A stretch of DNA of 38,262 nt from Podaxis mareebaensis (lineage: Eukaryota > Basidiomycota > Agaricomycetes > Agaricales > Agaricaceae), in contig JAEUWP010000295.1 of the NCBI GenBank assembly GCA_018524725.1, forward strand, positions 1 through 38,262, in the 5' to 3' direction. The notes beneath the pieces are model-generated. The model ran no database searches. It was not told the DNA's origin and saw only the letters and a program-made list of their open reading frames with translations. Both the position numbers and the translations under genes were made by a program. Shown here in pieces: positions 8,372 through 38,262 of the stretch. Positions within the stretch are counted from its first letter, which is position 1; each line of letters opens with the position of its first letter.

Positions 8372-8466
8372 AGTGAATTAGAATGAGTTGTTTTATTCCT
8401 TGTGCTATGAATAACTGAGCCACTGAAACAATAGTGGTAGTTACTGAGAAAGGAAGGTGTTTTGAT
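8372..8466 (-). other. LINE 5' UTR
   Basis: A 95-bp leader between the insertion boundary and the ORF1 ATG. Such a short leader leaves little room for an internal promoter. I see no clear promoter element in it. Full length is inferred because the ORF1 start lies inside and the TSD abuts its 5' end. Confidence 0.6.
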
Positions 8467-8485
8467 GGAAGGTTTCTGGCATCTA
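8467..8485. repeat. Target-site duplication of the LINE, 5' side
   Basis: Exact 19/19 match to 1308-1326, marking the 5' end of the LINE insertion in element A pol. Confidence 0.95.
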
Positions 8486-9166
8486 GCCAAACTTTGTCAC
8501 CTGTTTCATACATCTCTGTTCAAGGTGTTTTTCTGAAGATCATTTGTTTAGCATTTTCTTTCATGACTTCTGTGGCATTGCATTGGGATTGATCTATATC
8601 AAATAGTCATTCATTTGATGCAGGGGTGTTGGTTCAGATGAGGAGTTCAGGAATGGGAGGGGGATTGTATCCATAGAGAAGCTCAAATGGTGTCTTCTCA
8701 TTTCCAGTATGCATGGTTGAGTTATACTTGTATTTGAAGTGCAACAGTTTATCAGCCCATGACTTGGGATCTTTGTAGCAATACTTCAAAAGGTATACTT
8801 CAAGTTCTTGATGTGAGCATTCTGTGGCTCCATCAGATTGGGGGTGGTAGGCAGTGGATAATCATAAATTGATTCCTAGGGCAGAATAAAATGCTTTAGC
8901 AGCTTTCCCTGCCCATCGTGGATCTTGATCTGCTACAATTGAGGTGGGAATTCCATAGCATGGATAGAAGTGCTTTGTAAGCAAAGTGGCTATGTCTTTG
9001 AAGGTCGCCATTTTCATAGTTGGTAGTACTAGTATCCCCTTTGTAAGTCCACAGTCCACTATGGACAATATGGTGTCATAGCCTTCTGTAGTCTTGGGTA
9101 GACCTGTGACAAGGTCCATGGACACATCTGCAAAGGGATGTAATGATGGTGATGGCTCCAAGGGGT
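8486..9166 (-). pseudogene. pol: Element A pol, middle part: integrase catalytic core
   Basis: The integrase core begins with FADVSMDLVTGLP near 9135. It contains the DDE landmarks: Asp in SMDLVTGLP, Asp in IVADQDPRW near 8930, and the Glu after STAYHPQSDGAT near 8830. A tail follows with FELLYGYNPPPIPELL and GDKVWLDARNLP. TGAs lie near 8865, 8635, 8610 and 8519. The piece joins to 16574 upstream (across B) and 1326 downstream (across the LINE) in one frame. Confidence 0.88.
9163..9166. repeat. 4-bp target-site duplication of element B (left copy)
   Basis: gggt here and at 16570-16573 flank the two LTRs of B. Keeping one copy rejoins the A integrase zinc finger (CHICQQFNIDRR) to the core. 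The reading frame across the junction supports this short TSD. Confidence 0.85.
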
Positions 9167-9769
9167 TGACAAGGCAAGTTCGGGGATGGATGTGAATAGT
9201 GCCAGCGTCCATCTGGCAATGGGAGTGGTTGTGGATTGAAGCAAGTTAGAGAATCAAGAGCAAAAAGAGAGCTGAGAGAAACTTGGGGGAAAGATCCATT
9301 CTATTTGTCGTACCTACTACAACATTTTATACTACCAATCTTTCAAGGTCCGAGCCATATGGTATGTAACATAGGAAAATACTAGAAAATTGAGAGAAAT
9401 TGTCAATAGAATGAAAAGAAAAGGAATGAGTCATGAGTAAGCCTTTTATCACCACCTCAGAACTTTGTCTCTTAACACTGAATTCCAATGTTGTGGGATT
9501 CTCGAGACACAAGGAACAACAGGCATTCTTGGAATGAAATCAGAGGTTGGAAGGATGTATATGGAATGGTGAACTGGTGGAGCCATTCTGTCATCAACAT
9601 TGCTGAGCCACCTTCTGAGAGTGGAAGGCAGTGGTTGAATAGGGAGTGACATCGTTACAGATGGTCCATGTATGTTGCGTAGTCAAGGAACAAGGTCAGC
9701 GGATGTCGAAGTAATGGGAGGAGGATGACAGATGGTGATTTCATAGCCAGCCGGTGTCCGATCTCCACA
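9167..9769 (-). repeat. 3' LTR of element B
   Basis: 603 bp, starting TGTGGAGATC and ending GTCA on the minus strand. It pairs with 15967-16569 without indels. The pol reading frame of B runs about 115 nt into it before a TAA at 9655-9657. Confidence 0.95.
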
Positions 9770-12700
9770 TCTCCCAGGGGGTTTTCATACTGACTTCCCA
9801 GTCAGTCAGCAACATGACTTCTGAGTCCATCTTCGAGTGTGTTGACATCATTATAGATGGCTGGGATGGCATCTGGTTCATGGGTAAGGTTTTCGAGCTG
9901 AGCTGGTGACAAGTCTGTGATCTTTGTGACAGGAACTGTTCATAAGTCATGGGGGTGATATGGTATGAGATGGAAAGCTGTGAAACATAGCTTTGATACC
10001 GATCTGTTGAGTTCTGCCAACATGTAGGATCCTCCCTTCGTCCGGCACAGGACTACCATGGGCCCAAAGTAATGGGGTTGGGTCTTGCTACCCAATTCTC
10101 CATCAATGCAAGAGTTGCGCACAAGCATGAGGGAACCAGGACTAAAATTGAAGTCCTTGATGGAATGCTTATGTTCCTCCTTGAAGTGCTTGATCAATTT
10201 GTATTGAGCCTTCAATACTCGTTGCTTGATTTGCACAAGGTCTGTAGGATGTTTCTGGAGCTGGACAGTGCAGTATGCGATGAGATCAGCAGTGGGGATG
10301 GGTTTTGTGAGAGGAGGCACCAGATACATCACTTCAACAAGGTCGAAGGGGAGAAGAGGTTCTAGACCGTGTGCTATATAATATGGTGAGTACCCTGTTG
10401 CCTTTTGTATTGAAATCCACTCAGCCCAGAATATGGATGGTGCAACTACTGTCCACTTCTTCTTGTCTCCTTCAGCTGCCTTTACCAATGCTTCATGAAC
10501 ATCAAAATGTCTTCACTCAACCGGACCATTTGCACATGAGTTATAGGGGGAAATGCATATGTGATAAATCTTGTATTTTTGCGTGAGGTATTGAACTGCT
10601 TGAATGAATGCAGGACCATTGTCCGTCATGATTTCTTTGACTGCACCCCACTGACATAGTATGTCTTCAAAGATGAAAGACCCAAGTGATCGTGTGTTCT
10701 CTTGATGGAGCATCCACCACTCTGGATATGATGATAGGGAACATCGAGCATGAATGATATACTGGAACCCATTTGACTTTGGCATGAACATTGTGTCAAC
10801 ATAGACTTTTCGAAAAAGGGATAAGGGGATGGGGACTGAAGGTGGGATGAAAATTCACTTGACCATTTGTGTTTGACACTCATGACAGGTTTTGATGAAC
10901 CAGCAAATGTCATCATCGAGGTAAGGCCACCAGAAGTGTTCAAGGAGCCAAATGCATGTTGTGAAAATACCCTTGTGCCCAAGTTCATCATGTGCTGCCT
11001 TGAGTAAGTGATACCACTTTTCTTCGTCTACCACAACCAACTTATGCTTCCCTTTGCCATCCTTCTTCCATAACTTTCCACCTCAAAGAAAGAAACCACT
11101 GACGAGTCAAATGAAATGTTTAAAGATGCTATCAGGCATCCCTTCCAGTTTCCTGGGGTTCTCCAGGAACATCTTGATTGCGAGTAACTTGTGATCTCGA
11201 AATTGGGCTTTAGGTGACCGGGGAATCTTCGGGTGACTCTTGTGGTCACTTGGCTGAGATGTTGCGATTGTGTTCATGATGATGGTGATGGTGGAATTGT
11301 ACACTGGCCAGAGACTTAGGTCTTGCACCCATAGGTTGAGACTTCTGTGTCTGACTGCTTCGAGTATTGCTGAGAGTGCGGGCAGACTCTGGTCGCCTTG
11401 TGTTCTCGAGGATGTTAAACTGTGTGCTGACCCAATGAGGAGTGCATTCGCTTTGTTGATCCACTCTTCATAATCATCTTCTTCGACTGGGTCTTCTGGT
11501 GTGCATGGCTGTTGTGATAACCCATCTGGACCATGGAGGTGTCCAGGAATGTGCCACAACTTGAAGTTGAACAGTAGGATAGCTGTGATCCAATGATTGA
11601 TTGTCGCATTAGGTTGTATATCCAGATTGTTAATCATCCCTCGTATGTACTTCACGTCAACCTCAACAACCAAATTCTTCACCCCTACTATCCAGATCCT
11701 ACAGTCCTTCAATGCCTGAAACAGCCCAAACAACTCCAACTTCACCTGTGAATACTGCCCTTCCTTCTCCGACAGGGTAATTGAGCCAAAATGTGATGGA
11801 TATCTCTTGTTATTGACACTGAGCTGAGAGAGAATATACCCAACTGCAATATTTGAAGTGTCGACTGCCAGAATAACTTCTCTGTCACTTGCGTAGTTGA
11901 TTCCCCTGATTGCAGGTGAGTTCTTTGCCAACTCCTTCAACCTATCCATTGCTAACTGCTGTTCTTCACCAAACACAAACTCTGCACCTTTCCGAGTAAG
12001 ATTGATGAGTGGTCATGTGATGACAGCATAGTCTTTGATGAAAATGCATATAGTACCCATGGTTCTGAGGAACCCACAAACTTTGGTGAGGTTCTTACAT
12101 GGAGGCCAATCGAGAATCTTCTGAACATGTGATCTATCAGGTAGACGACCTTCATACGTGCAAAGGTGACCAACAACGACAGCAGAGGGGACACAAATAT
12201 GGGATTTGGCTGCAGAGAAGGTGCCACCAGCATGTTTGATACATTGGATGACTTGATTGACATTCTGGAGATGTTCCCAGACAAAGTGCCAAATCCCTGG
12301 ATTCTCAGGAATAGTCTTGAAGCTTCCACCTTCGATTTTGTAATGTGTGGGAGGACCCTTGACTGGCACGTCATCGATGAAAGGGACTGCAACATGGGGA
12401 ATTTCATCTTGAAGTAGAAAGGTAAGATCTCCATGTTGGATTTGCAGCGAATTCATGTAACCCATGGGGATAGATGTAAGACAAAGTGTTCTGAGAGGGG
12501 TCTGAAAGGTGGTGAGGTTGCGAGACTCAGGTGCGAGGGCTCATTGGTTGTATCCAACATAAAGGTCAAAAACCCCATAGCACCCATGTCCTCCAAACGA
12601 CTCTGCATACTGCTCGATGAACGGTGGTACCCCAGCATCTTTGATGGTCACTGCATTCAGTGGCTGAAGGTCGTGAACGAGACGGAGAGACTTCCCATCT

Positions 12701-13401
12701 TTCTTGAGGACGCAAAACCAATGAGAACGATATGATGAGTTAGATGGTTCATACACTCCAGCTGCAATCTTGTCTTTGATAATCTGAACGACATGATTGT
12801 AGATGCCAGGGGGAATCGGGATATTCTTCAGGCTCCATGGAACATGCTCGATAGTTGGGATGACCACAGGATCGAAATATTCCTCCAAAAACTTTCCCTT
12901 CTCTTCTTTGCACCATGCAAGACCCATTTCCTGCAACTGAATAAGGTGATGTACCAACTTTTCCTCCTCCGGCCATAAAAACCCATCTTTATTGACATTC
13001 ATAGTGAGTTTGCGTTCAAGAGTATAATGAGATCCAGGCAAGAATTTGGGAGGGTGAGTAGGAAGGATGGGGAGAGACTCGAGGGGGTTAGAGGGGATGC
13101 GATGAATGATACAAAACTTCTCTGGAAGGGTAGTAGCAACTGGCTTGACTCAACAGGTGACTTTCTTATAGGCGAGTGACTTGACTAGCTGGCTTTCGTA
13201 TTCGATATCTGACAACGAAATTTCATATATTTCTTGAGGGTTCAAGATAGGTTCAAAACAAGATGATGTGAAGGCAATGGGAGATATCATACAGCATGAG
13301 AGGGGAGAGAGTGAAATGGTGAGAGGCTTAGTTAATTGGTGTGGAATGACTTGATAACCCGAGTCTCCTCAATGAAGTGCCGAATCCTCGACTTCTAAAA
13401 A
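9655..13401 (-). pseudogene. pol: Element B pol: RT, RNase H, integrase
   Basis: The pol frame opens at the -1 overlap with gag-protease (TTTTTAG at 13395-13401) and runs 1249 codons into the 3' LTR. RT: VLKKDGKSLRLVHDLQPLN near 12690 and an FIDD active site at 12370-12381 (FIDDVPVKGP). RNase H: LAVDTSNIAVGYIL near 11860. Integrase: HHCC finger (HDELGH ... CHECQ) near 10990-10880, then the core with MPKSNGF, MTDNGP and the Glu of NGPVE near 10515. The LxxP.HPHDL tail has no chromodomain. Stops inside are all TGA (for example near 12540, 12014, 11110, 10860, 10515, 9940). The position after YNQ at 12540 is normally Arg in this family, as I recall it. Confidence 0.9.
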
Positions 13402-15776
13402 CCTGATGGAGGCAAAACAGTATGAATTTGAGGCTTGGTTGGAATTGTAACCACCGTCTGAGTGTTTGGGTCCATGAGAGTAATGTGTGATCCACCATTT
13501 GAGAAATGATGAGTGCTGGCTTGGGTGAGAGTGAGGAAAGGACATCCGAGAAGCATTTCATAGGAGGCATTCTCAACAACTTGGACTTGGAGATAGAAGG
13601 TGCAGTTGCCGATCGACACATGGAGGTTAGGTAGGAGACTGATTGTTGCCTTGCAAGATGAATTGGCTGACTCCATCATCATGATCTTGTCTGACCTCAT
13701 AGGCAACCCCAATTTCTCCCAAATGTTGCATTGTAACCCAATAATCTGTGACCCTTCATCAAGGATAGCATCCAATGAAACCTTTCCCTCAATATCCACC
13801 TCAACTGTTCAAAGATCTTTGATATGGTTTGCAACAATTGTGTCAGGAGGAAGGGAGTGGCCTGAGGAATGGATAAGTGACAATATAGGTTCCTCCACTT
13901 CCTTGACTGATGAAACTGTCACTGGGGCTGCAGGAACTCTCTTCAATGTGACTTGGTCTTTTATGAAGTGACAAAGGTCTGGTGAAATCACAAGGAGTTC
14001 TTGTTGAGTTAGAGTAACTGTACTCTCCATCCCTTTCTCAATGACCTTCTGGACCAGTGATGAGTCTTCTATAGGCAATGTGTAGCAAAACTGAGGTGTG
14101 GATGACGAAGGTGAAGATGTAGATAATGGTCCAGGGGGTTGAGATGAAGGAGATGAAGATGCCAAGGGTGGAGATGGAGTAGTAGTAGATGTCACAGGTA
14201 AGAGTTGTCGCCCTTTAGCCCCTTCTTTTGTGCTAACACTCAATGCCCCTTTTCCCTTCATAGAACTCCCTAGTTTCTTCTGGATGTCTTTGGCCCTCTT
14301 GAGAGATGAGACAGCAACTGAGTCTAGGAGTTGGAGCTCTTCAAGCTTATCTGTGGTGACTTCTCCTAGGCTCTCAGTGGTGTTGGAGGTAGCTGGTGGC
14401 ATGACCCAGGTGTATTGATGAACATCTGGAGATGGGGTGGCTTCAATGATGTTCAATGTAACAGGAGGTGTGTTTTGAGCCTTATAATAATTATCCAACC
14501 TCTCCTTGATGTTTCTCCCAGGTGCAAGCTTGGATGTGATGACAGTGCCATCTGGGAGAATGATATGATGATCCTCATTGCACTTGCACAGCCCTCAGGT
14601 GATGTAGTTTTCAGCCTCAGAACATTGGTGATGGAAGTGGTTGGGGTCTGAACAAAATGTGCAATCAGTGTTGCAAGGATGAGAGAATGAGGTACTTTCC
14701 TGGGGCCTATTTCTGTTTGAACGACTTCCCAACTTCCCAGCTAACTTGTCAAGAAAGGCATCTGAAACAAGGAATTGCTTGAGTGATGACATATTGAAGG
14801 TTTTGCGAGCTTTCAGGGGTGGTGGGAGTACTGGAGGAGAGTGCAATGAAGGGGTATACAAGGACGTTACTGGTGGTAAGGGGGAGGGACCTGAAATCAT
14901 GTATGATGGTGGACTGTAGGCTGAGGGAGGGGGATAGTAAGGTGTATGACTTGGAAAACCTCCGAGTTCACTTGCAGCTGAGGTAGTGTCAAGAAGGAAT
15001 TGAGCAGCTTTGACTACCTTGTCCATAGGCCATGGTTGATAGAGAGGGTGGTCAGGGTTCTTGAGATGAAGTCAAGAGGTAAGCTTGTCACGAAAACTTG
15101 GGTCAAATCCACTAAAGAAAATCATATCCCTCTCGCGATGAGATATCTTGTTTCTGCCCATGAGCCAGTCACTAATGGTCAAGAATTGATGGTAGTACTC
15201 ACCGAATTGATATCGAGATCACATAGGAACAGTCACCTGACAATCAGCTAGAGCTTTGAGGTCATAGAATGTATATTTACAATCCTCTTCAGCTCCTGGG
15301 TACAAGGCCATGATGTCTCACTTGAACTGTTCCCAATCTCCTCCACTCACACTGGGTCTTCCCTTCCACATCTCATATTCCCTCCAGCTCAGGTAACATA
15401 ATGTATAGTGAATCATGTCTTGATCATCTAGCTGACAAGACCTGCCCAAGGTCTCGATTTCATTGAAGAAGCACCTGAGGGAAAGTGGATGACCATCAAA
15501 TTTCAGAGTGCTTTGATCCCCTGGAGCAGGCATACTACGAGGGTTGGGGGGAGCTTGGATAACGATAGGCTGGGATGGAGATGGTGGTACAAGTGGTTGT
15601 GGAGTGACCATATGACTGTCTGGAGTGCACCAATTTGCAGGGATGAACTGAGGGTGAGCAGGAGTGTGAGTGCCGATGTTTGTGTTGTCTCCCAACATGC
15701 CAAAGTAACAATAATGAGGGCAATAATTGTAGTGACACTGGGATAAGACTTCTGATTTGTCTCCAGCCTGAGACAT
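13395..15776 (-). pseudogene. gag: Element B gag-protease
   Basis: The start is ATG at 15776 (MSQAGDKSEVL) and the length 794 codons to a TAG at 13395-13397. The gag region carries a conserved-looking central part (SLRCFFNEIETLGRSCQLDD), proline-rich linkers, and one CCHC knuckle (CTFCSDPNHFHHQC) near 14670. Downstream is a retropepsin-like domain near 13760-13500, with LDEGSQI as the active-site loop and YEMLLGCPFL as the flap-distal motif. DEG replaces the usual DTG/DSG triad; the catalytic Asp is kept. TGAs interrupt the frame near 15318, 15205, 15074, 14595 and 13809. Pol follows in the -1 frame. Confidence 0.85.
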
Positions 15777-15966
15777 GTCAAAGACTGAAAGATGGAGGCT
15801 AGGTGATGGGGATGAAGTATCTGATGGAGCAAAGGAGTAGAAGATAGTATGGGGGGAAAGAGGGTGAAGAGGGGATAAGAGGGGATTGTTAAGGATGAGA
15901 GAGATTTCTTCAGCAAGATTTTGGTCTGGAATCTTGAGCTAGATGCCCCTCACAGTGGGCTCCAAA
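15777..15966 (-). other. Element B leader with primer-binding site
   Basis: Two bases after the 5' LTR, the minus strand reads TGGAGCCCACTGTGAGGGGC (15964-15945). It starts with TGG, complementary to a tRNA CCA end. Element D has the same 20-mer except one CpG-derived difference (TG here, CA there). The primer tRNA is not identified; a U before CCA would fit tRNA-Cys, which is only a suggestion. The rest is a short untranslated leader. Confidence 0.8.
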
Positions 15967-22666: not shown

Positions 22667-22807
22667 CCTGGAATGATTGTATGGTTTCAAATCCTTTTGT
22701 ACTATGCAAAATACCTTCCAGAAACATGGCCTTTTGTGGTATTTAGTACATTTTGATGTATATATTGACTGTTTTTGGTATATATAGTTTTGGCCTTTTT
22801 GCTGATG
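22667..22807. other. AT-rich spacer before the tandem array
   Basis: No ORF or repeat recognised. It contains two gtatatata-like stretches. It may be the outer end of the foldback-like structure that begins at 22808. Confidence 0.3.
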
Positions 22808-23545
22808 TGGTAGTAGAATTCTACTGTTCTGGGGACCTTAATAGGAGTAGAATTCTACTGTTCCTAGGACCTTAATGGTAGTAGGATTCTACTGTTCTGG
22901 GGACCTTAATAGGAGTAGAATTCTACTGTTCCTAGGACCTTAATAGTATTAGAATTCTATTGCACATAAGACCTTAATGGGAGTAAAATTCTACTGCACC
23001 TTGGACCTTAATGGTAGTTGAATTCTACTGTTCCTAGGACCTTAATGATAGTAGAATTCTACTGCACCTAGGACCTTAATGGGTGTAGAATTCTACTGTA
23101 CCTAGGACTTTAATGGGAGTAGAATTCTACTGCACCTTGGACCTTAATAGGAGTAGAATTCTGCTGTTCCTAGGACCTTAATAGTAGTAGAATTCTATTG
23201 CACCTAGGACATTAATGGGAGTAGAATTCTACTGCATCTAAGACCATAATGGTAGTAGAATTCTACTGCCCTTAGGGCCCTAATGATAGTAGAATTCTAC
23301 TGCACCTTGGACCTTAATGGTAGTTGAATTCTACTACACCTAGGACCTTAATGGTAGTAGAATTCTACTGCACCTGAGACTTTAATGGTAGTAGAACTCT
23401 ATTATGTATAGGACTTTGATGGTGGTGGAATTCTACTACATCCAAGCCCTTAATAGTAGTAGATTCTATTGCTCCTAGGACATCAATAGTAGTAGAATTC
23501 CACTACCACTAAGATTATATTAGCAGTAGAATCCTACTGGCTCAA
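22808..23545 (+). repeat. 34-bp tandem array, forward orientation (array 1)
   Basis: About 21 units with a 34-bp period (for example the palindrome cores at 22816, 22850 and 22884). Each unit holds a 14-bp palindrome, AGTAGAATTCTACT with an EcoRI core, plus a spacer of the type gcacctaggaccttaatg in which CCTAGG is also palindromic. Units vary mostly in the spacer; the palindrome is best conserved. The same unit is found inverted from about 25122 on. Confidence 0.92.
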
Positions 23546-23676
23546 GTCCCCCTTTGGAAAGAATTCAAACCAAGGCCACATACTATTCTCACTCTCATGC
23601 ACCACAACAACCACAGTTATTTCAAATCTAGTAACTAAACATAAACTAGATAGAAATCAAGTTTCAATGGTAAGCC

Positions 23677-25006: not shown

Positions 25007-25121
25007 ACAGAGTATTTTACTTGTTTGACAGGATACTTGGGCTTACTATAATAGAATGCCATTGTGTCAGTTCTTTGATCAAATTTTTCTCTTGTCTTGC
25101 AAGGCCTTGACTTCTATGGTA

Positions 25122-25705
25122 ATATAATTATACTAACATTAAGGTCCTAATTCTACTCCCATTAAGTCCTGGATACAGTAGAATTCTGCTGCCACTAAGG
25201 TCTTGGCTGTAGTAGAATTCTACTATCATTAAGGTCCTACATGTAGTAGAATTCTACTCCAATTAGGGCCCTAGGTGCAGTAGAATTCCACTCCAATTAG
25301 GGCCCTAGGTGCAGTAGAATTCTACTACTATTACAGTCTTATATGCAGTAGAATCCTACTGCCATTAAGGTCCTAGGTACAGTAGATTTTCACTACCATT
25401 AAGGTCCTAGGTGTAGTAGTATTCTACTCCTATTAAGGTCCAAGGTGCAGTAGAATTCTACTCCCATTAAGATCTGAGGTGTAGTAGAATTCTACCACCA
25501 TCAAGGTTTTAGATACAGTAGAATTCTACTCCCATTAAGGTCTCAGGTGCAGTAGGATTCTACTGCTGCTAAGGTCTTATGTGCAGTAGAAATTCACTAC
25601 CATTAAGGTCCTAGGTACAATAGAATTCTACTATCATTAGGGCTCTAAGTGCAGTAGAAATCTACTCCCATTAAGACTCCAGGTGCAGTAGAAATCTACT
25701 ACCAT
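25122..25705 (-). repeat. 34-bp tandem array, inverted orientation (array 2, first part)
   Basis: About 17 units, each the reverse complement of the array 1 unit: ccattaaggtcctaggtgc followed by the palindrome AGTAGAATTCTAC. The array is cut at 25705 by element D and resumes at 37844; both D boundaries fall at the same point of the unit (after ctaccat). Confidence 0.92.
25702..25705. repeat. 4-bp target-site duplication of element D (left copy)
   Basis: ccat here and at 37844-37847 flank element D. Keeping one copy restores the array unit. Confidence 0.8.
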
Positions 25706-25788
25706 TGTAGAGTGAGTAAGCTCACTAGGGTGTGAGGGCCCAGTGGTGTTGTTAACCTCAGGAGTATACCAACAAGTGGCAGAGACAA
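25706..25788 (-). repeat. 3' LTR of D, distal part
   Basis: 83 bp matching the first 83 bp (plus-strand order) of 37659-37843. It ends in gacaa, the TSD of element C. It includes a small hairpin GTGAG-taag-CTCAC; the other LTR has GCAAG-taag-CTTGC at the same place. Confidence 0.88.
25784..25788. repeat. 5-bp target-site duplication of element C (left copy)
   Basis: gacaa here and at 36935-36939. Joining the flanks with one copy rebuilds an LTR of D at its full 185 bp. Confidence 0.93.
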
Positions 25789-26029
25789 TGTAAAGCTTTA
25801 TGCTTTACAGTTAGAAGACCTCACGCTCACACCAAATAGTTCAAACCTGTTTATTGGGAGACTACATGGCACAAGCAAAGGTCAGTTGTCACCGACAACC
25901 GAAGTGCCCTAATAAACAGTAGATACAAACATGTGATGGAGTGATGGGTAAACAAGACTGATAGCAAAATATAACACAATGACATGGGTTAATTGATTTT
26001 TGAATTAAGTGTAAGGGCGTGCCCTTACA
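25789..26029 (-). repeat. 3' LTR of element C
   Basis: 241 bp. Both ends are perfect hairpins: TGTAAGGGC-gt-GCCCTTACA at 26010-26029 and TGTAAAGC-tttat-GCTTTACA at 25789-25809. A third, GTTGTC-acc-GACAAC, lies inside. It differs from the 5' LTR at 7 bases in 5 CpG-derived sites. Confidence 0.95.
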
Positions 26030-26042
26030 CACCCCCCCTCCA
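26030..26042 (-). other. Polypurine tract of element C
   Basis: Minus strand TGGAGGGGGGGTG immediately before the 3' LTR; the expected plus-strand primer of reverse transcription. Confidence 0.85.
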
Positions 26043-26380
26043 GACCGTTTTATGGTCTCTTGGTGTGAGAGAGAAGAGGATTAATAAATAGTCATGTATG
26101 ATAGGGTATAGGTCCGAGATGAATAAGATGCTCGGTTTTAGGGTATAGGGTATATGGCCAAGACGACTAGGTCGCTTGGATACAGTTTTAATAAGTGGTG
26201 AGGCTGAAGGGGTAAAGTCCCTCGGCCAGGTGTGAAGGAAGTCAAGTCATGAGACTTGACCATGGTAGGGGCCAGGCAGTGATGCCTGGAAGAGGATACG
26301 AGTGGGATCAAGTCATGAGACTTGACGAGGGTAGTTACACGGCGGAGCGACTAGGTCGCTCCCCTGTCGTCGATAGGAAG
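26043..26380 (-). other. Element C 3' non-coding region rich in hairpins
   Basis: No ORF. It holds two copies of the hairpin TCAAGTC-atga-GACTTGA (26242-26259 and 26308-26325), GAGCGAC-tag-GTCGCTC (26345-26361) and repeats of the type agggtatagg. These precede the polypurine tract. Confidence 0.7.
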
Positions 26381-29300
26381 TTAGGCAGGGGGTAATGAAA
26401 TTCCCCCAGCCCTGGGTGTGGAGCTGTTTGACAATGCAATATCGTCGTCAGATGCATTGGGGGGTGATGACTCGCTTTCGGGATGAAGAATGGAGGGGCA
26501 ATCAACCTCCATTGGTCAGGCTTCAGTTGAGGGGTGATCCTTGACCTGAGCCTCACTAGATGCGATGGGCAGAGTCAAGTTGCTGGGCCCATCAACTGCA
26601 GGTGTGGTTGGGGGCTTGAGCAGGTGTGGGGTGTACTCCCACTTACTTAGAAGGCAGAAGTGAGTAGGGCCCCCGGCCTTTAGCCAGCTGGGGTCATCTT
26701 GCATTTCCTTCCCGGTGCGAAGGAATTCTCGTTGTTCGAAGAAATACGACCTGAGAAGGTTGTGGTCGTTGGGGTAGAACCATCTGTCCCATCTCTCGAT
26801 GGCCAGAGGTGGTCCATATAGGTCGAGACAACAGATACGTTCATCGTCCCAGTCATGATACATGGACTGGTGACTAGGTTCACCAGTATAGGATTGATCC
26901 AAGTAATGGATCCCAAAGAGGTAAGCATGGTCGACCCAGGACAGGTCGACTCCATTGTGGATGAGAACCTTGGCAACGGTGTCGAGGTTCATATTTGGCA
27001 CTTGACTATTGTCAATGTCAAGTGATCGGAAGTAACACGTTGGTCCCGGTTGAGGGACAAAGGGGTGTTCAGGATGCCGAGCATTCCAACGCTCAATATA
27101 CTCTCTATAAAGTCGTGGTGATGCAACTAGGACAGCAAAAAGCCGGGTGAATCTCACCTGGCCTGTGCGGTTAGGACCACATTTGGGTGGCCCAAAGAGG
27201 CGAGCTAGGCCGTACCCAAAAGTGGTTCGATGGTGTATGAGCCGTCTATGCTCGAACAAGATACCATTGATGGGGTTGTTGGACCCCGGGCAGCTATGAG
27301 TAAGAAGATATCGACCAAGATGGTCAATATTGAAGAGGCCAGCTCCCGTGGGCTGGGTGAAACCCATGCCCTGGGTCCAATTTTTGGGATTTGAGACACG
27401 AGCTTGTTCGTACGCTCGTGACAGTTGGTGCTCTTCCCTTATTTCAGTGGTTATTCCAGACAGGTGCGTGTCTGGGTGGAAGCCACTATGGCGCAACAGG
27501 AAGATCATTGCATCATTGTAGTGCTCTTCCTCCATGCACTGAGCTATTTTGTATAGCTCAGTCAGGAGGTGGTGTGCCTCAGCTTGATGCTTGGCTTTGG
27601 CATGATGATTATTGAGAAGCTTGATCAGCTTCTCTACTTCATGGGGTGTCATAGGCAGTCTGTGACGGGCTGCCTTATAAACTGGATGAGTGGCTGGGAT
27701 TTCAAACTCCTGGCCTTTGTATTCCATCATTGCGGCGATGGTGGCAGTGGCTCCAGCGAACACAGTATTGATTCGTCATGAGTAATGAACTTGCTGCGAT
27801 AACATGTTCCACATGCTGTTGTCGCATTCGCAACTACGGACTTGGCTGTGTTGCCATAGTCCCCACATGGATGGAATAATGCCATTATGACCTGGCAGGT
27901 CATGGATAATTGGTCGAGATGTCGACCTAGAGGTTGATGATTGAGGGGCCTTCTTCTTACCCTTCTTGGGTTTGAAGTCTTTGGCCGTGTCTTCTTCCTC
28001 ACTGGAGGACATGGGTGTCATGTCCTCAGGTGTGAGGTAGTTGGGGACAACTCGAGGAGTGTCCTCGAGTTTGGTGGGGAGATGGACCAAAATGAGTGGT
28101 CCATAGTTGCATGTGGGGGAGGTGGGACCTGGAATCCCAGGTCCCGATGGTAGTTCTTCAATATGCAATGACTGCTCAGAAGCAGTTGTCAGCGGGAGTG
28201 GGGTGTTGTCCATTGGGACGTCATCATAGATGAGCATGACATCCAGTTCTTGGGTGACCGACTCATCAGTCGTCCTGATGGGTGAATCCTGTTGCCTTCG
28301 CTTGGACGACTTTTTGACAGGTGTTGGTTCTTGACTAGTGCTAGGCGCACTAGTCTTGGAGGAGGTTGTGGTTAGGCGAGTGCTGGGAGCACTCACCTTC
28401 TTGGAGGTGGAAGGTGGTAGCTTGGTTTGTGTACCTGCCTTTGAGGATGAGGATGATGAGCGAGCACTACTGGTGCTTGCTTTGGAAGATGTAGATGATG
28501 TGCGAGTCATTGCATTACTCGCAGCTGAAGCGTATGATTTAGGTCGAGCTGATGAGCTCAACACAGGTTGTTGTTGCTGTTGTAGTGGAGCTGGAGTGGC
28601 TCCACCGGGAGGTGTTAGAGAACCAGACAAGGTCCTCTTTTTAGACGCACGAATCGTGGCCTTGAGCTCGTACTCTCTCGATTGCTGTAAAGCGGAGAGT
28701 GTATCATTGAGGTGGCGGAGGCGTCCTTTGAGGACGCTGATGTGTGCATTTTTATTTTGTATAATCTCAATGAGCTCATTGAGAACTTGATTGATCGACT
28801 CATCAAATGGGTCGATCATGTCGATGAGGTGGTCATTTAGTCCAACCTTGTGTAATCGGGATATGAGGCCCGAGTTCTGTTCCTCATATTGTTGGTGGAG
28901 CAAATCTTGCTCCGATGCGCATTGTTTGCCTTTGGCTCTTGACAGCCCAGCTGTCGTCGAGGGCATAGGGTGAGGTAGTTGCCAAGTGTATTCACTCGGC
29001 ACAGTTGGGTAATGGTGGTGGTGTGCCAACTGAAGTGCAGTTGGCAGCAGCGGCAATGCGTGATATGGATGATAAGGCATTGTCGTCAGATGATGGAGCG
29101 TCAGCAGTGGTGGAGGGTAGTATGCAGGGTTCAGGTAACCCTGTGGATATGGATTGAATGGTGGGTGGCCAAATTGTTGATTCGGCCATTGCTCAAATTG
29201 TGGGTGTTGAGACATCGACATTGGTATCGTCGACAGTAAGGTGCAATGAGGGTCTTGGTGCCCTTGCTGATGCTCGGGCTGACTCATAAATGTTGGAGTG

Positions 29301-29557
29301 GGGTCTGAAGTTGTGTCCATTGACTCCCTCCCCCTCCCAGGACCTGTCCAGGGTCCTTGGAATGTTGATGGTGCAGAGCCGCTTGTGCTGCTCTGCTGAG
29401 GCATGGTGGTTGGTTGTTGTGGTTGTTGCAGGTGCTGGGGGTTCATGGTGGTGGTTGTAGGGAGAGAAGAGGCGACTTTTGCAAGTTGCCATTGGTAATA
29501 TATTGTAGGATTCTCAGGGTCGAAGTTAATCTCTTTGACCTGATTTGTACCTACCAT
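26381..29557 (-). pseudogene. Element C second ORF (ORF3), about 1059 codons, unknown function
   Basis: ATG at 29557 lies 32 nt inside the 3' end of pol, in the +1 frame. The frame runs to TAA at 26381-26383 with only two stops, TGA at 27776 and 26516. Residues 1-220 are Gln/Pro/His-rich. About 225-320 look like coiled coil (LIDMIDPFDESINQVLNEL...LRHLNDTLSALQ). About 330-430 are Ser/Ala/Thr-rich, then comes a basic linker (KPKKGKKKA). The C-terminal 420 residues look globular, rich in aromatics and His (YGLARLFGPPKCGPNRTG, IERWDRWFYPNDHNLL). No signal peptide, membrane helix, protease or nuclease motif. An accessory structural or nucleic-acid-binding protein is possible; an envelope role is not supported. 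Confidence 0.75.
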
Positions 29558-32500
29558 TTCTGGTAGGCTGTGATCGGGGTTGAAGTTGTTGAACCTTCAA
29601 CACCCCTTGCAGCTCCAGGTACCTATCCAATGCTGCGAGTTCTTTGCAGTGTTGTATTGGTTCCCAAGTGGTGTCTCCCAGACTCCACTGGACCTGAAAT
29701 TCGATTTTGCCATCATTGGTAAACTGATGGCCTATGATCTCTTTGACGAACCATTCATGCTTGTCATCAAACCTGAAGTTGTATGGCTCGGGCCGCGATC
29801 GCTCTGGGAATAATGTATCGTCTGAGGCATGGTATGGCCTCAGAAGGTTTACATGAAACACTGGATGGATTTTCTGGCATAATAACACTGGGGGCAGTTC
29901 CAATTTGTAATTGGAAGTCTCTGGCTTTGATTCTAGGACCTTGTAGGGTCCTATAAACTTTGGACAGAGCTTTCAAGCTCTGTCTTTTGGTAACGAGAGG
30001 TTCTGTGTGGAAAGGTAGACTAAGTCTCCCTTCTCGATACAAGGTTCTGGCCCTCGTTTTTTGTTGGCATTGTGGGTTTGGAAAACCTGTGATTCTATTA
30101 TTGCATCATGGGTGGCTGCTAAGTTTAGCAGTGCTGCTTCTGCAAAGGTTGTTATTCCTTTGTGGATGGTTTCGGCATTGCAGCCATCCCAGATCATGGA
30201 CGGCATATATCCGTAATTCAACTCGAATGGGGCATATTTCGTGGTAGCTGAGATGCTCGAGTTGATTGCAAACTCGGTTAATGGTGCTTTGTCGACCCAA
30301 TTAGTTTGGTTGTAGCATACCGTTGCATGGAAGATCTGACTGATATTGCAATTCATTCGCTCAGTCTGGCCATCCATTTGAGGGTGAAAAGACGTTGACA
30401 TTAGGAGCTTGGCTCCTAATATCTTGTGGAGCTCTCTCCACCAGGTGGATGTGAATTTTGAGTCTCAATCGCTCACAATCGAGCTTGGTAGTCTGTGTAA
30501 GCATATGATATCTCGTACATAAACCCATGACAGCTCCGACACTGTCATTTTTGTGTGCACTGGTATTAAGTGCACCATGCTCGTCATTCGGCACATAACT
30601 ACCCAGAGATAGTTAAAGCCTCTGGATTCTGGGAATGGACCGACGAAGTCCATCCCGATTGAGTCCCAGGGTTTGGTAGGAACCAGTAGAGAGTGTAGCT
30701 CTCCACTGGGTTTTGTGTTCGATGTCTTGGTTCGAGCACACGTTTCACAAGTTCCACAGAACTTGTGACAATCTTTTACCAACAACGGCCACCAGTACCA
30801 TCTGTGGACGTACTCTGCTGTCTGTTGGTCGCCTAGATGTCCCACAATTTTGTGGGCCTTCATCAGTACCTGGGTTATGAGTCACCTGTCATTTGGGATA
30901 CATATGACTCGGTCTCCTAGGGGAGTTTTCTTCATGATCACTCCTCGGTTATCCACAGAGAAGTCTCTATACTTCTCTGGGGATTGTTTGACTATACTCA
31001 TTAATGAGTCTGCATTGTATCCAGTGACGACTTTGTCAATGAAGTCGTCCCCAATGGTGAAACTGGCGGAGTTGCCAGTTGCAGAGAGTGACTCACCAAG
31101 GGTCATTCCCTTGGTTTTGCATTTTTGTGTTGAGCGTTTCACTCGGCCAGTATCTGGTTCTACAGCATGGAGGGCAGCTGCCTCTTGAAGCTCTTCAGCT
31201 TCAATATCTTGTTGTTCGCACTTTTCTTGGAGTCTGGTGCTTCACCTAACTCCTTCGTCATTCATGGCTGCCAGTCGATCTTGCAGACGTTGTATCTCTG
31301 CTTGTCTTGGTGCTGGCAAATCGTCTCCTTCGGGGTCGATATGGAAGTCTGCCTGTATGTACTCCCCACTGGGGTGCTCTTCCCCCAGTTGATCACTCTT
31401 GTAGTATCGCGAGAGACAGTCAGCGATCTTGTTGTGTTCTCCTTTGACGTAGGTTATGTCAAAGTTGAACCTCGACATATAGTCGAGCCATCATCGTTGT
31501 CAGCTCAACAATTTCAATTGAGTTTTGAAAAACTCAAGTGCTTTATGATCGGTAATGATGTGGATGTGATAGCCTACCAGCTTATCCTCCCACTTCAGTA
31601 ATGCTTCGAGGATAGCCAGTGTTTCGAGTTCATGCACAGCATAGTTCTGCTGTGCTGCAGAGAACTTTTTGGACATGAATCCTGCTGGGCGACAGTCCAC
31701 CCAGCTGGGGCCTTGTCCATACATGGCACCGATACCAGTTTTTGAAGCATCACAGATAACCCATATGGGTTCTCCGTTCTTCGGATCTATCGGTTGGATC
31801 ACGGGCGTTTTACAACAGATGCATTTGATCATATTGAAGCATCTCTGATGTAACAGTCGCCAGTGGAATGGTATTCCGTTCTGTGTTATGGCCATTAACA
31901 GGCCAGTATATGCAGTTATATCTGGCAGAAAGTTGGACACGTAGTTAATGAGTCCAACAAATTTCTGCACGTCATTATAGTTGCAAGGGATTCTCCACTT
32001 GCGGATTTGGGATAGTTTATCAGTATCAGGGTGGATACCATTATTGTCTATTATATGACCGAGACAGTCCACTCGGTCTGCATACAGTTCTACCTTCGAC
32101 TCTTTGACGTAGAGCTGTTGTTGGCGGAGTCAGTCTAATACAAGCCGTAGATGCTGCTTGTGTTCCTCCACAGAATTAGAAAATATAAATATATCATCCA
32201 GGTATACGTGGACAAATATACCGATGACGTCTCTAAAAATAGCTGTCATCAATCTTTGGAACATGGCAGGGGCGTTACAGTCCCCTTGCTGCATGATGTT
32301 ACTAACGTATGTTCCCACAATGGTGGAGAAGGCTGTCTTCTCTACATCCTCAGGTCGAACTCTGACCTGTTTGTATGCGTTGGCTAGATTGATCTTAGAG
32401 CGATACCTCGCTCTAGCCACGTCTTCTCAGATTACTTCTTGATTAGGTAAAGGAGTTACATCCTTTACCATGTTATCATTTCGCTCCTTCGCATCGACGA

Positions 32501-35500
32501 CTGTACGCAGTCACCCATCCTTCTTGGGGATGCATAGCAAAGGGGCTGCTTGCATGACATTGTGGGGTTCCCACCACCCCGCGTCTATGTAACAGTTGAG
32601 TTTTGCATGGAACTCCTCCTGTAATGACTGTGGGCATCTGGGCAAGTGATAGTTATATCACTTGTTCTCCTCTATGAGGTGAATCTTGTGATTCACCTCT
32701 CAGAATGGGGGTAGGCGAGATGGTGTTTCTTGCATCATATCGTTGTAGTCGCGCATCAACCGCTGCTTAATCTGCAGTATTTTGCACTGGTTCTGGTCAC
32801 CCAGATTATCAGGTGGTTTCTTTGTTTCGAATCGAGCACGCGTGTCCTCGATTCGTTTCATGCAGTTGTCTTCCATTGGTAGACGGACAACTGTCATACT
32901 ATGGATATAATCCCTGAGAGACCACTTGGGATATCTTATCCTTGTGAATTCTTCTGTGTGGACAATATTGTCCACACTGCTTGGGGTGTATCCCATAGAC
33001 GGTGGGTGTCCGTCTGCGGGTCGTTTCATTGACCAGATGCCTGATACCATGGTGTTCCACTCGTCAGGCATCTGCAGGTCATAGTACCAGTCGTACATTG
33101 CCTTGATGACCAGTGTTTCGATGAGCCATTTGTGGGCTGGTGGCCCTCGCTTTTGACAAGCTAGTAACTCGTCTTTGACTGAGACTATAGGGTGAAATTT
33201 AGGTTCACTCACATATTGTGGACGGGGAAGTTTCTCCCCGTGGTCTTCATTTCTTGTCCTCAAGGGAATCTCCTTGAGGATATGGGGATAATTGTGGGGG
33301 AGTTTTCCCCCAGTGTGTACTCCACTCGCTTCGATGACGTCCTCTACTGTCACTCGATTCATAGTGGGCTCTTTGCCTCCATATAGTCATGTCAACTGAT
33401 GTTTATCAGTCAAACAATGGCGATGGAGCCGCATATCTGAGTTACTGACAGTGTTGGTAGCTGGAATGCTGACTCCATCAATGATCACTGCTTGATTCTC
33501 GAAATTGAGCTTCACTTTATGCCGATGCATAAAGGGGGTTCCGATTATCATGTCATAGCGATCAAAGTTCGCTATGTCAAGGTACGATGAGGTTTTTATA
33601 GGCCCGACTGTCAATTCAGTGGTTGTGCTGTACTTCACAGTGGATCTACTACCAACTGTGCCCAGTTGGAGTGTGTGCAGATCTTCTAATTTGCTGACTT
33701 TAACGTCAGCAATTTGAGCAAAGGTGGGGGTCATTCTGGAGGTCGTACTCCCTGAATCCCAGAGCATCCAGGCTTCGATGCTGTTAACACTGATATACAA
33801 TGCAAGACATTGCTTCTTGCAAGGGGCAATCTGTGGGTGTAATATCTTTCCTTTGTTGGTTCGAAGAGTGACTCTTTGAACCCATTGATTTTGAGGCTCA
33901 TCTTCCTCAGGGTAATCAGTGAGCGCATTTATTTCGCTCTCTGCAGGAGTATCGTCGATACTTGCGAGGAAGTTCATGTCCTCGCTATCAGATCCATAGT
34001 CAGATTCAATGATGGTTACTTCGGCATATCCATCTTCTGAGGCTTGTGTTGACGCATGATCTTCGTCAACGTCGTCCTCCTCTTCTTCATAATCAGGCTG
34101 GTCATCTTCTGCCTGATCATCGTCTTCTTCTCCTGAGTGCGATACTCCGTCTTCAGGTATCGCTGTATGAGCTGCTCGAATCTGTGAGGGTTTACCCTTC
34201 AAAGGGCACTTGTCCGAGCTAGCATAATGGTTACTGCCACAGCGATAACATTTTATGGCATTGGTAGGTTTATTGGCATTGTGGTCCAGTGGTTTACTGG
34301 GCTGCCTCACGCCTAGGTGGTTGCTCGACTTATAATCCAGTCGAGCTGTTTTGTTCTTTGAGTCATGCGAGAGTTGCTGTAACTCTCGAATGTGCATTTG
34401 CTTTCGCCCATTTGCTACCTTCTTGGGTACGAATGCCGTTCGAGATCTAGATTGCTCTCGAATCGGTACTGGGCGATTATTATGCATCAGGGGATCTACT
34501 CCCCTGTTATTCAGATGAAGAGCCTGACAGTAGTATGATGTCAGTTTCCATTGGCTTTCGTATGAGACTGCGTAGGTGAGGAACTCGTCTAACGAGTTCA
34601 CTTCAGGGGACAGACCTTGATGAAACAGCAGGTCTGTCCTCATGTCCTCAGGTATTCCTTCCAGGAATAACTCGATGAGGGTATAATCATCAGGATGCAC
34701 AGTCATGCACTGTGCATTGTCCATGATGGAGTCATAGTATCCTTGTACTCCAATGCGAGGGTTATAATGGACTCGTTTGAGTCCTTCTCTCACTTTGTGC
34801 ATTGATGTTGGTAGCACGAAGTGATTGTACAGAGCAAGGATCGCTTCCTCGAAAGTCCAATCGAACTTTGTTCAATTAACATTTATAATGTGCCGAATGA
34901 TCATTCATTTGGCCTCTCCAGCTAGGTGGTAGGGTAGGGTATACAGGCGCAGCCTGTCCCTTGCATGATCCATTCCACCTAGACCTTTTAATGCAAGGTC
35001 TAGGCAGAGTGCGGATACGAAGTTTTTGAGGTCACTAAACCTCGGACTTCCACTGTAGGGCTCCAGACCTTTCTTGGTGGGGGGTTTCCCATTTCCGGGT
35101 CTGTACCCCTCTGGGAATTCAAATGGTTGCGAGAGGTACTCTCAGATTGTTGCACTCAACCGATTGTGCATTAGTCGTGTGTGATTGTGAATGGTGTTTG
35201 CAATGCCTGGGGACCCAAAGGTCGGTGGTATGTCTCTAACAAGGGAGTATCCTCACCTTGGTCTTTCAGGGGGTTGGTATAATTCCTCCCCTTCGTCGGA
35301 TTCTTCCTCTTGATGACTTCCATGACCAGTCGGTGGTTGTGGTACTGTTGGGGGGTATACTGGAGGAGTGGCTGGGGCTGCTCCTCTTAGTGTGGCTGCA
35401 TGAGCCATAGGTGGTGGTAACGACGATCGTCGAGGATGCAAGGCTCCTCACCTTAGGTCATTATCATCCAAGACATCCCCATCTACAGGGGTTGTTCCTA

Positions 35501-36611
35501 TGAACCGGATGCCTTGGTCTGGTATTTTTGACCTTCCGTATAGTCAAATATCTTCATTTCGCATCCGCTGGAGTGCCACTCGATCACTCCAGTATTCCAC
35601 GCACTCTATACTGGGCTTGGATGGCCCAGTTTCCAACCGCTTTTCTCTCTTGCCTCCACTCGGGTTAAGATCAATTTTAACAGAGTGCTTTTCTGAACTC
35701 TGTATAGGTCTTGGTTGAGCAATGGAGGCATTGGGGATTGCCCTATTGAGGGCAGTCAGTACTTGTGTTTGGCTTTCTAGACAACAAGAGTATTCGTCGT
35801 TGTTTTCACCAATCTTTCAAGGGGCAAACAGCTTGTCTAAGGCTTGTTGGGTCGAGTATGTTGTGATACTCGACTCTGAAGGGGTTGGTTCTGCAAAGGA
35901 TGATGTTCCTCTGATCGGTGCTTTTCCTTTGTCAGGGGTGCCACCAAGTGCCGCCATAGGGTCGGCATCGGATGGTGATTCTACCCGTGAAAGGGGGTTG
36001 TACAGGTGCTCATCACCTGTGTTATCCATTTCTTTCCTTGATCAAGCCGTAGGCATGGCTCGATAGATTTCATTCATGGGGGTTTCAGGTCTTTCCCCTT
36101 TATGTTGCTTTGCTGCCTTGTACAGCGAAGCGAGTCATTTAATTGTTTTACATAGGAGATTCTTATACATCTCCAATGTAGGGTCTATTGGTATATCTGT
36201 CGAGCTCTTAAACAGCTCAATGGTATATTCTTCTGCATGGAACCGCAGTTCTGCCCTTCTTACAGGGCTTTTGACATGATTCACGTCGAAAATGAGGGAA
36301 ATTCTTTCTTCGAGTGTATATAATTCACTCGATATTGCTGTGTTAAATTCAGGCGATGGTGCCCTGTCGAGTGACAATGGTTGCTCACTTTCCTCCTCTA
36401 TTGGTGGCAGAGTATGTAAATTGCTTCCAGCTGCAGTATTAGATCCCGTAGTCGGATTCTCTGCATTGTGTTGACTATTGTCGATGGGTTCTAATTTAAA
36501 TAGTCTGGAGTGGGGATAATTTCCCTTTCCTCCATTATTGTCAGTGCGGCTACTGCCACTAGGTAGTGAATCTGATGTGTTATCACATCAAAGCTTGTTG
36601 GGCGTTGTCAT
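29526..36611 (-). pseudogene. gag-pol: Element C gag-pol polyprotein, one frame
   Basis: ATG at 36611 (MTTPNKL); 2362 codons to TAA at 29526. Gag to about 34150, with a Cys/His knuckle of unusual spacing (CYRCGSNHYASSDKC, near 34240). Protease: LWDSGSTTSRMTP near 33765 and YDMIIGTPFMHRH near 33545. RT: LCIPKKDG near 32540 and YLDD at 32193-32204. RNase H: VICDASKTGIGAMYG near 31755, HELETLAILEAL, ITDHKALEFF. Integrase: HKIVGHLGD...CGTCETC finger near 30850-30740, MDFVGPFP, SSIVSD, FHPQMDGQTERMN. Chromodomain near 29770-29610 (FQVQWSLGDTTWEP). There are 22 internal stops, all TGA, several where this family has Arg (after KKDG, after the VLD of the post-YLDD helix, after IVSD). No frameshift in 7 kb. 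Confidence 0.93.
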
Positions 36612-36693
36612 TCTTGGTTGCCACGTGTACGTGGTGGTTAGGTATTATAGGGCATTTTGCTCGTGCGTTAGTCCACTCAGTGAACTAAAAAAA
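36612..36693 (-). other. Element C leader
   Basis: 82 bp between the 5' LTR and gag ATG. It begins with seven T, then AGTTCACTGAGTGGACT, which can fold on itself. No TGG-type PBS is seen, unlike B and D, so the priming mode is unclear. Confidence 0.6.
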
Positions 36694-36934
36694 TGTAAAG
36701 CTTTATGCTTTACAGTTAGAAGACCTCACGCTCACGCCAAATAGTTCAAACCCATTTATTGGGAGACTACGTGGCACAAGCAAAGGTCAGTTGTCACCGA
36801 CAACCGAAGTGCCCTAATAAACAGTAGATACAAACATGTGATGGAGTGATGGGTAAACAAGACTGATAGCAAAATATAACACAACAACATGGGTTAATTG
36901 ATTTTCGAATTAAGTGTAAGGGCGTGCCCTTACA
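36694..36934 (-). repeat. 5' LTR of element C
   Basis: 241 bp, equal in length to the 3' LTR. Keeps CpG at three of the five differing sites; the other two are CA here against TG in the 3' LTR. Confidence 0.95.
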
Positions 36935-37658: not shown

Positions 37659-37843
37659 TGTAGAGCAAGTAAGCTTGCTAGGATGTGAGGGCCCAGAGGT
37701 GTTGTTGACCTCAGGAGTACACTAACAAGTGATGGAGATGACTATATAATCATGGTAGAAGCTAAAGAAATTAATCTACACTGAAGTACATTAAATATGC
37801 CAATTTTCCCAATTTCCTATGCAGCCAAGTAGGTACCTCCACA
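37659..37843 (-). repeat. 5' LTR of element D
   Basis: 185 bp, TGTAGAGC ... CTCCACA on the plus strand; matches the two-part 3' LTR. Confidence 0.88.
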
Positions 37844-38262
37844 CCATTATAGCCTTAGATACAGTAGAATTCTACTACCATTAAGGTCTCAGGTGCAATA
37901 GAATTCTACTATCATTAAGGTCTCAGGTGTAGTAGAATTCTACTACCATTAAGGTCTCTGGTGCAGTAGAATTCTACTACTATTAAGGTTTCAGGTGCAG
38001 TAGAATTCTACTACTATTATGGTCTTAGATGCAGCAGAATTCTACTACTATTAATGGCCCAGGTGCAGTAGAATTCTACTACCATTAAGGTCTCAGATGC
38101 AGTAGAATTCTGCTCTCATTAAGGCCCTAGGTGTAGTAGAATTCTACTACTATTATGGTCTTAGATGCAGTAGAATTCTACTACCATTAAGGTTTCAGGT
38201 GCAGTAGAATTCTACTACTATTATGGTCTTAGATGCAGCAGAATTCTACTACTATTAATGGC
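37844..38262 (-). repeat. 34-bp tandem array, inverted orientation (array 2, continued)
   Basis: About 12 more units in the same orientation as 25122-25705; the array runs past the window edge. Units here are more uniform, and a higher-order repeat is visible (the stretch at about 38012-38058 recurs at 38211-38262). Confidence 0.92.

Follow-up and report, generated by a model that had tools for sequence, protein, structure and literature searches.

Element C, a long terminal repeat (LTR) retrotransposon with its sense strand on the minus strand, occupies positions 25789-36934 of a 38,262-nucleotide stretch of Podaxis mareebaensis DNA (contig JAEUWP010000295.1), referred to here as the window. 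The element is saturated with short perfect hairpins, and this saturation is a property of a whole Ty3-type clade in the assembled genome (37 Mb, 429 contigs). There is good support for upkeep of the hairpins in the clade's active lineage. Selection for hairpins in a single-stranded replication intermediate has, in our judgement, an even chance of being the cause; self-templated copying during reverse transcription is a serious contender that falls short of that mark.

Stem excess in element C and its clade

An exhaustive search of element C, with loops of up to 20 nt, returned 25 perfect stems of at least 9 bp, compared with a mean of 0.66 and a maximum of 5 in 200 dinucleotide shuffles. At minimum lengths of 7, 8, 9 and 10 bp, the element carries 106, 52, 25 and 11 stems, whereas 40 shuffles average 11.0, 3.0, 0.85 and 0.28. 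An earlier sequence-only reading had proposed such an excess from 15 stems; all 15 lie where it placed them, some being one pair longer, and 10 more were absent from its list, so the excess stands against the dinucleotide control and had been understated. Its estimate of about eight hairpins in 34320-34720 corresponds to exactly 8 stems of at least 7 bp. Loop lengths peak at 4-6 nt. The perfect stems of at least 9 bp in the window copy are as follows (family D is a second family of the clade).

26009-26030: 10-bp stem, loop 2 (3' LTR start)
27538-27562: 10-bp stem, loop 5
28005-28027: 9-bp stem, loop 5
28049-28071: 10-bp stem, loop 3
28124-28145: 9-bp stem, loop 4
28333-28355: 9-bp stem, loop 5
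28765-28784: 20-bp palindrome
29024-29046: 9-bp stem, loop 5
29963-29984: 10-bp stem, loop 2
30400-30420: 9-bp stem, loop 3; the homologous place in family D retains the stem (in L071 minus the outermost pair)
30745-30768: 10-bp stem, loop 4
30956-30979: 9-bp stem, loop 6
31518-31537: 9-bp stem, loop 2; family D copy L071 retains 8 of 9 pairs
32446-32469: 9-bp stem, loop 6
32643-32664: 9-bp stem, loop 4
32676-32699: 10-bp stem, loop 4
32828-32855: 9-bp stem, loop 10
32956-32977: 22-bp palindrome
33034-33074: 11-bp stem, loop 19
33257-33280: 9-bp stem, loop 6
34608-34639: 10-bp stem, loop 12; arm changes in just 2 of 17 aligned copies
34695-34717: 9-bp stem, loop 5
34978-35004: 10-bp stem, loop 7
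35851-35874: 9-bp stem, loop 6
36915-36934: 9-bp stem, loop 2 (5' LTR start)

The C copy C237, whose CpG sites are undecayed and which was taken in pieces, contains 120 stems of at least 7 bp where 10 are expected. They spread over the whole element at a mean spacing of 90 nt, with an evenness that, by our calculation, is about that of random non-overlapping placement. Four coding stretches from young C and D copies together hold 129 stems of at least 7 bp, compared with about 11 after synonymous-codon shuffling, a control named in the sequence-only reading, which thus abolishes the excess. Both kinds of shuffle lack the excess, which rules out chance, base composition, codon usage and protein repeats and leaves that explanation a practically negligible probability. 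The register in which third codon positions pair with third positions is avoided (19 of the 129 stems, against 28% in shuffles; P=4e-4), a scarcity expected if stems are built mainly by synonymous changes in both arms; two-way copying under protein selection could yield the same bias. Stems are GC-richer than chance stems, and longer stems are AT-richer in one of three sets, hinting that stability counts.

Beside the window copy, 15 copies match its gag-protease stretch at 89-95%, and a 76% relative on C70 is also stem-rich. Family D (L026-L034), whose members are 86-92% identical to one another and about 68-72% identical to C in alignable parts, is likewise stem-rich. All 59 loci around C-related matches exceed their shuffle mean at 8 bp or more, the weakest about 3-fold (L057 and L002), in a count based on five shuffles each in which some loci include flanking DNA. 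The clade pieces L071, L072 and L073 contain 18, 19 and 11 stems of at least 8 bp, compared with 1.0, 1.0 and 1.5. Among the 150 of 332 candidates scored in a reverse-transcriptase search, 49 rows, representing 46 places, share 61-100% identity with C, and the remaining 101 reach at most 39%. The unusual property that the sequence-only reading ascribed to one LTR retrotransposon is therefore real but was drawn too narrowly, as it is shared by a clade that comprises at least the families C and D. The very old copies C335 and C69 (L072 and L073) were first read as further lineages, which was not retained; they have no assigned position relative to D and may instead be decayed members of that family. 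Several C relatives (L022/L056 on C216, L051/L058 on C134) look rearranged or mosaic, with blocks of unequal similarity.

Other sequences of the same genome behave differently. In 11.4 kb of other Ty3 clades, sampled as six pieces, there are 12 stems of at least 7 bp against 11.2 expected, 5 of at least 8 bp against 2.6 (four of the five in L079), and none of at least 9 bp. Eight random 4-kb genome pieces (L061-L068) give 13 stems of at least 8 bp against 9.2; at 9 bp or more they hold 6 against 2.6, a mild general excess. Within the window, elements A and B (8200-15800) contain no stem of at least 8 bp where 2.9 are expected, in keeping with the near-absence first reported there. The long interspersed nuclear element (LINE) at 3300-8200, said to have almost none, has a weak excess of 6 stems of at least 8 bp against 1.6, a count reached in 1 of 300 shuffles, and lies far under C.

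The same division appears in folding energy, another comparison suggested by the sequence-only reading, here computed in 350-nt windows as the excess over dinucleotide shuffles. The mean excess is 33.6% in the young C copy, 29.2% in the window copy, 31.5% and 29.9% in D, and 19.8% in the old copies C335 and C69, and the excess is positive throughout the windows of C and D, including all 31 of the window copy. The other Ty3 pieces (-0.9%) and the random genome pieces (-0.6%) show none, and elements A and B fold below their own shuffles (-6.0%), just as their stems are fewer than expected.

This pattern resembles genome-scale ordered RNA structure (GORS) of RNA viruses. As described in the portion of one paper used here (PMC7642675), GORS comprises a whole-genome folding excess, many consecutive local stem-loops, indifference to which bases pair, and a constant level of structure despite stem turnover. 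In that portion, hepatitis C virus has 7.5-10.7%, SARS-CoV-2 about 15% and the highest vertebrate RNA virus 23.4%, all below the 29-34% of C and D, by methods that are similar but not identical (PMC7642675). Turnover of stems is also seen here: between C and D, 5 of 28 stems of at least 7 bp lie at the same columns (null about 0.1). Few stems are shared yet both families are dense, and therefore folding is retained while particular pairs are not. Because so few stems are shared, covariation between C and a young D copy (33% divergence across the alignment) is near background. Element C departs from GORS in being a chromosomal LTR retrotransposon with short perfect stems, strand symmetry and no clear wobble preference. 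The sense-specific, wobble-tolerant character of an RNA-strand property was not found, although a G.U preference of up to about 2-fold, by our estimate, would be compatible with the data.

Constraint on stem arms in the active lineage

Differences between copies are largely CpG to TpG/CpA. CpG changes were taken as post-insertion decay and shared non-CpG variants as mostly pre-insertion. The pooled, per-seed, polarised and arm-mismatch counts of variants given below exclude columns below 80% occupancy, stretches below 88% mean identity, the outgroups L021 and L049, and the poorly aligned L043 and L027. Copies L005-L020 form a decay series in which CpG observed/expected falls from 0.97 to 0.05, which suggests CpG methylation of repeats in the host.

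Among C copies, shared non-CpG variants at third positions affect 16 of 497 arm sites, 25 of 190 loop sites and 245 of 2220 sites outside (P=4e-9). They are thus 3.4-fold rarer in arms than outside, with no depletion in loops, whereas first and second positions do not differ (arms 20/980, outside 126/4453; P=0.19). Third-position non-CpG divergence to the C70 relative follows the same course (arms 77/503, loops 61/196, outside 635/2229; P=3e-10), and CpG-type divergence is 10.1%, 12.8% and 10.1% in the three classes. When C and D are pooled, shared non-CpG variants number 23/1159 in arms, 46/759 in loops and 394/7979 outside (arms against outside P=1e-6), while CpG variants amount to 13.9%, 14.6% and 14.3%. 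Fixed subfamily differences are likewise fewer in arms (8/523) than in loops (11/220) and outside (52/1583; arms against the rest P=0.02). When each of 14 seed copies in turn supplied the stems and the remaining copies the variants, P fell below 0.05 for 12 seeds at 7 bp or more. Such constraint recalls that exerted by RNA structure on synonymous sites of HIV-1 (PMC4161434, PMC2666660), which, at the level of the abstracts, likewise involves selection on paired or synonymous sites; in C it is element-wide and strand-symmetric.

Changes of pairing, polarised by outgroup, include 8 gains and 15 losses when partners are unchanged (P=0.016) and 11 gains and 22 losses when changed partners are included (P=0.007), compared with a neutral gain:loss ratio of 0.178 that assumes a transition weight of 6. 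Gains of pairing thus exceed neutral opportunity in a count from which two changes of unknown direction were additionally removed. Pairs at the outer flanks of stems roughly track composition.

In dead copies, stacked CpG pairs that have decayed on both sides are paired in 240 cases and unpaired in 230, a tally that sets aside 67 undecayed, 207 one-side decayed and 52 other-state cells as well as 57 gaps. Decay is thus indifferent to pairing; upkeep of stems does not continue after integration and is confined to the active lineage. These numbers also bear on a host process at the DNA level, namely gene conversion or quasi-palindrome correction in copies that have already integrated. In yeast DNA, according to an excerpt of PMC3820800, imperfect inverted repeats undergo mutations that lengthen the identity between their arms. 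However, random decay in dead copies and the absence of anything comparable in other elements or in the random genome pieces make such a process highly improbable here, and a host-wide or DNA-repair cause was rejected for integrated copies.

Candidate causes: selection, self-templated copying and RNA stability

Under selection, the active lineage would have to maintain its genome as a chain of over 100 short local hairpins, one in roughly every 90 nt, written mostly through synonymous codon choice. The hairpins would act in a single-stranded replication intermediate (genomic RNA and/or cDNA), and general folding, rather than particular stems, would give the advantage. This advantage may be akin to that of genome-scale ordered structure in RNA viruses, such as protection, packaging or escape from silencing. 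Of the two causes offered in the sequence-only reading, folding selection gains from the synonymous depletion in arms and from stem gains above neutral, but is weakened by the lack of a clear preference for G.U over A.C.

Several observations count against selection, the first group concerning wobble and strand. In C237, D, the two old copies and the C70 relative, the enrichment over shuffles of stems of at least 9 bp is 7.7-fold when they include one or two G.U pairs and 6.4-fold when these are A.C, compared with 3.7- and 2.9-fold for A.G and C.U. Arm variants yield G.U 24 times, A.C 18 times (P=0.44) and transversion mismatches 10 times, the G.U/A.C split being 8/8 in gag, 10/3 in orf3 and 6/7 in D. 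Against controls that preserve the stems and shuffle everything else, the native sequence shows extra structure of equal size on the two strands (the sense value minus the antisense value is -0.8 +/- 0.9 in C and +1.6 +/- 0.9 in D). With no clear G.U preference and the strands alike, the process either recognises Watson-Crick identity instead of RNA stability or works on both strands, a reading that the base composition of the stems speaks against. The CpG control is also uneven by data set: gag arms carry more variants and D arms fewer (24/294, against 341/2504), and several decayed seeds and all D seeds have fewer CpG variants in arms. At 9 bp or more, where stems are few, just 2 of 14 seeds give P<0.05, and the D seed L031 lacks clear depletion. 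Compensated doubles are absent from the 8 fixed arm differences and near background against D, and all data come from one host genome. Finally, self-templated correction combined with protein selection accounts for most of the same data.

Selection on the stability of the sense genomic RNA alone, whether as ordered structure or as dispersed packaging hairpins, would be favored by a folding excess in C and D that is larger on the sense strand (29-34%) than on the antisense strand (21-24%), by loops mostly of 4-6 nt, by polarised losses that give 9 G.U and 4 A.C in a hand tally, and by the orf3 alignment taken alone. It is improbable in view of the missing overall G.U preference and of single changes relative to the C70 relative, where A.C outnumbers G.U (68 to 44, CpG decay included). 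The sense excess is probably a composition effect, as both strands keep equal extra structure with stems held. Wobble tests on one-mismatch stems were small and gave no clear preference, and closing pairs and loop end bases show no strong preference, although no motif search was made.

In self-templated copying, the growing strand would fold back during reverse transcription and one arm would be copied from the other, perfecting near-palindromes. Protein selection would discard copies that change amino acids, so that a synonymous arm mutation would usually be reverted, and what sets the clade apart from other Ty3 elements would be its reverse transcriptase or its manner of replication. This account, which we consider plausible without expecting it to prevail, is consistent with strand symmetry and the near-indifference between G.U and A.C, the perfection of stems, single-pair gains above neutral, the restriction to one clade and the lack of correction after integration. 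It is also consistent with two copies in which the 3-nt loop of a hairpin 11 bp long in that copy is exactly inverted as its reverse complement, with CCC turned into GGG in the youngest copy and TCC into GGA in another. Loop inversions are ascribed to template switching in an excerpt of PMC8794818, where inversion together with a compensatory change is held to be the strongest possible support. At the second inversion, the arm also became perfect, but its changes are of CpG type and may be plain decay. A stem close to the 3' end shows, against the C70 relative, 7 of 8 differences in one arm and 1 in the other, in an uncertain alignment, and another stem has three adjacent changes in one arm. 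Both are possible one-arm rewrites, read with no outgroup; a scan for one-arm changes gave nothing clear.

The main difficulty of self-templated copying lies in paired substitutions, a check that the sequence-only reading had proposed. At third:third pairs, copying predicts about one double per neutral substitution, roughly 11-13 of 46 pairs by our estimate. Between subfamilies, 32 of these 46 pairs are unchanged, 7 have single changes, 6 are paired doubles and 1 is an unpaired double; among C copies, 1 double stands beside 2 single sites. Raw counts against the C70 relative, which for 484 pairs give 19 paired doubles and 99 broken pairs, also contain CpG decay and do not form the main argument. 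Template-switch correction, the second cause offered earlier, thus keeps the strand symmetry and the loop inversions, but the doubles, few in any case, seem to fall below the estimated number. The relevant papers (PMC8794818, PMC3820800), as far as their excerpts go, share perfect stems, loop inversions and strand symmetry with C, but concern DNA replication, whereas C has more than 100 stems per 11 kb in one retroelement clade and scarcer doubles than expected.

Selection fits the scarce doubles better, and copying fits the symmetry better; elsewhere the contrast is blurred because a copied change at a first or second position would be rejected by protein selection. More speculatively, the lineage's own reverse transcription might continually palindromise its genome, the second arm serving as a built-in backup copy that damps errors, a proposal we regard as somewhat doubtful. 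Fold-back copying would then mend either arm from its partner and push coding sequence, as far as synonymous codons permit, towards a series of perfect hairpins. To our knowledge, such a self-correcting replication mode would be without parallel in other retroelements.

Element C among fungal retrotransposons

The boundaries first drawn at 25789-36934 are correct, as 241-bp LTRs and a 5-bp target duplication were found. The LTRs begin with TGTAAGGG and end with GCTTTACA (TGTAAG...TTTACA, the TG...CA termini of Ty3/gypsy elements), with TTGTC on either side. Both LTRs and all coding regions are on the minus strand.

36694-36934, minus: 5' LTR, TGTAAGGG...GCTTTACA, 241 bp, hairpin at each end
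33387-34871, minus: gag/protease open frame, 494 codons stop to stop, RVP_2 aspartyl protease
32049-32714, minus: reverse transcriptase region (RVT_1 matched in the young copy's homologous open frame)
31500-32072, minus: RNase H region (RT_RNaseH)
29529-31055, minus: integrase region with H2C2, rve, SH3_Tf2-1-like and sub-threshold Chromo
27776-29557, minus: extra open reading frame (ORF) 1 downstream of integrase, 593 aa, no informative domain
26516-27763, minus: extra ORF 2 downstream of integrase, 415 aa
25789-26029, minus: 3' LTR, 97% identity to the 5' LTR across a 246-nt match, flanked by TTGTC

The gene order (protease, reverse transcriptase, RNase H, integrase) is that of Ty3. The gag/protease frame contains, by eye, a zinc-knuckle-like motif and has homologues named from Leucoagaricus, Termitomyces and Psilocybe among others, which we take to be Agaricales. 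The best solved-structure matches of the reverse transcriptase are 4ol8 (reverse transcriptase/RNase H) and 7q5b (Ty3-G Gag-Pol). Domains of the integrase region were scored on the young copy, so that their window coordinates are presumed by mapping; the Chromo match after integrase (E=6.8e-5, 23.2 bits) lies under the 25.1 cut-off, and the element is a candidate member of the chromovirus branch. The window copy is broken by 5 TGA codons within the reverse transcriptase region. A search with ORF 2 returned a single protein, from Agaricus bisporus H97. An Rfam scan of element C and a tRNA scan of the whole window were empty. Element C thus resembles fungal Ty3/gypsy chromodomain LTR retrotransposons in its LTRs, 5-bp duplication, gag-protease-reverse transcriptase-RNase H-integrase order and, putatively, chromodomain-like tail, and differs in its hairpin saturation and two post-integrase ORFs.

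Hairpins also mark the LTR ends (e.g., 36694-36934), formed by TGTAAGGG and CCCTTACA at one end and by TGTAAAGC and GCTTTACA at the other. In 23 aligned LTRs, the arms TGTAAGGG and CCCTTACA are unchanged by eye and the intervening loop is variable. The surroundings include a 34-bp minisatellite with the palindromic core AGTAGAATTCTACT (22706-23550, 25084-25760 and 37770-38258), which flanks a 1.7-kb spacer in inverted orientation and recurs past element C; C adjoins it or sits inside it.

A literature search covering titles, abstract openings and few subscription papers found no account of hairpin-saturated LTR retrotransposons, which is weak evidence of novelty. Should selection be the cause, genome-wide folding would extend past RNA viruses to a chromosomal retroelement that folds more strongly than the viruses in the portion of PMC7642675 compared here, and the clade would offer a natural system for studying the purpose of such folding. 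Should copying be the cause, the clade would reveal a mode of reverse transcription in which the template is edited by the process itself, and also a path by which mutation can give rise to structured RNA. With either cause, the clade provides a clean design in which the active lineage can be set against dead copies, arms against loops and synonymous against CpG decay sites, with the unstructured Ty3 clades of the same host serving as controls.

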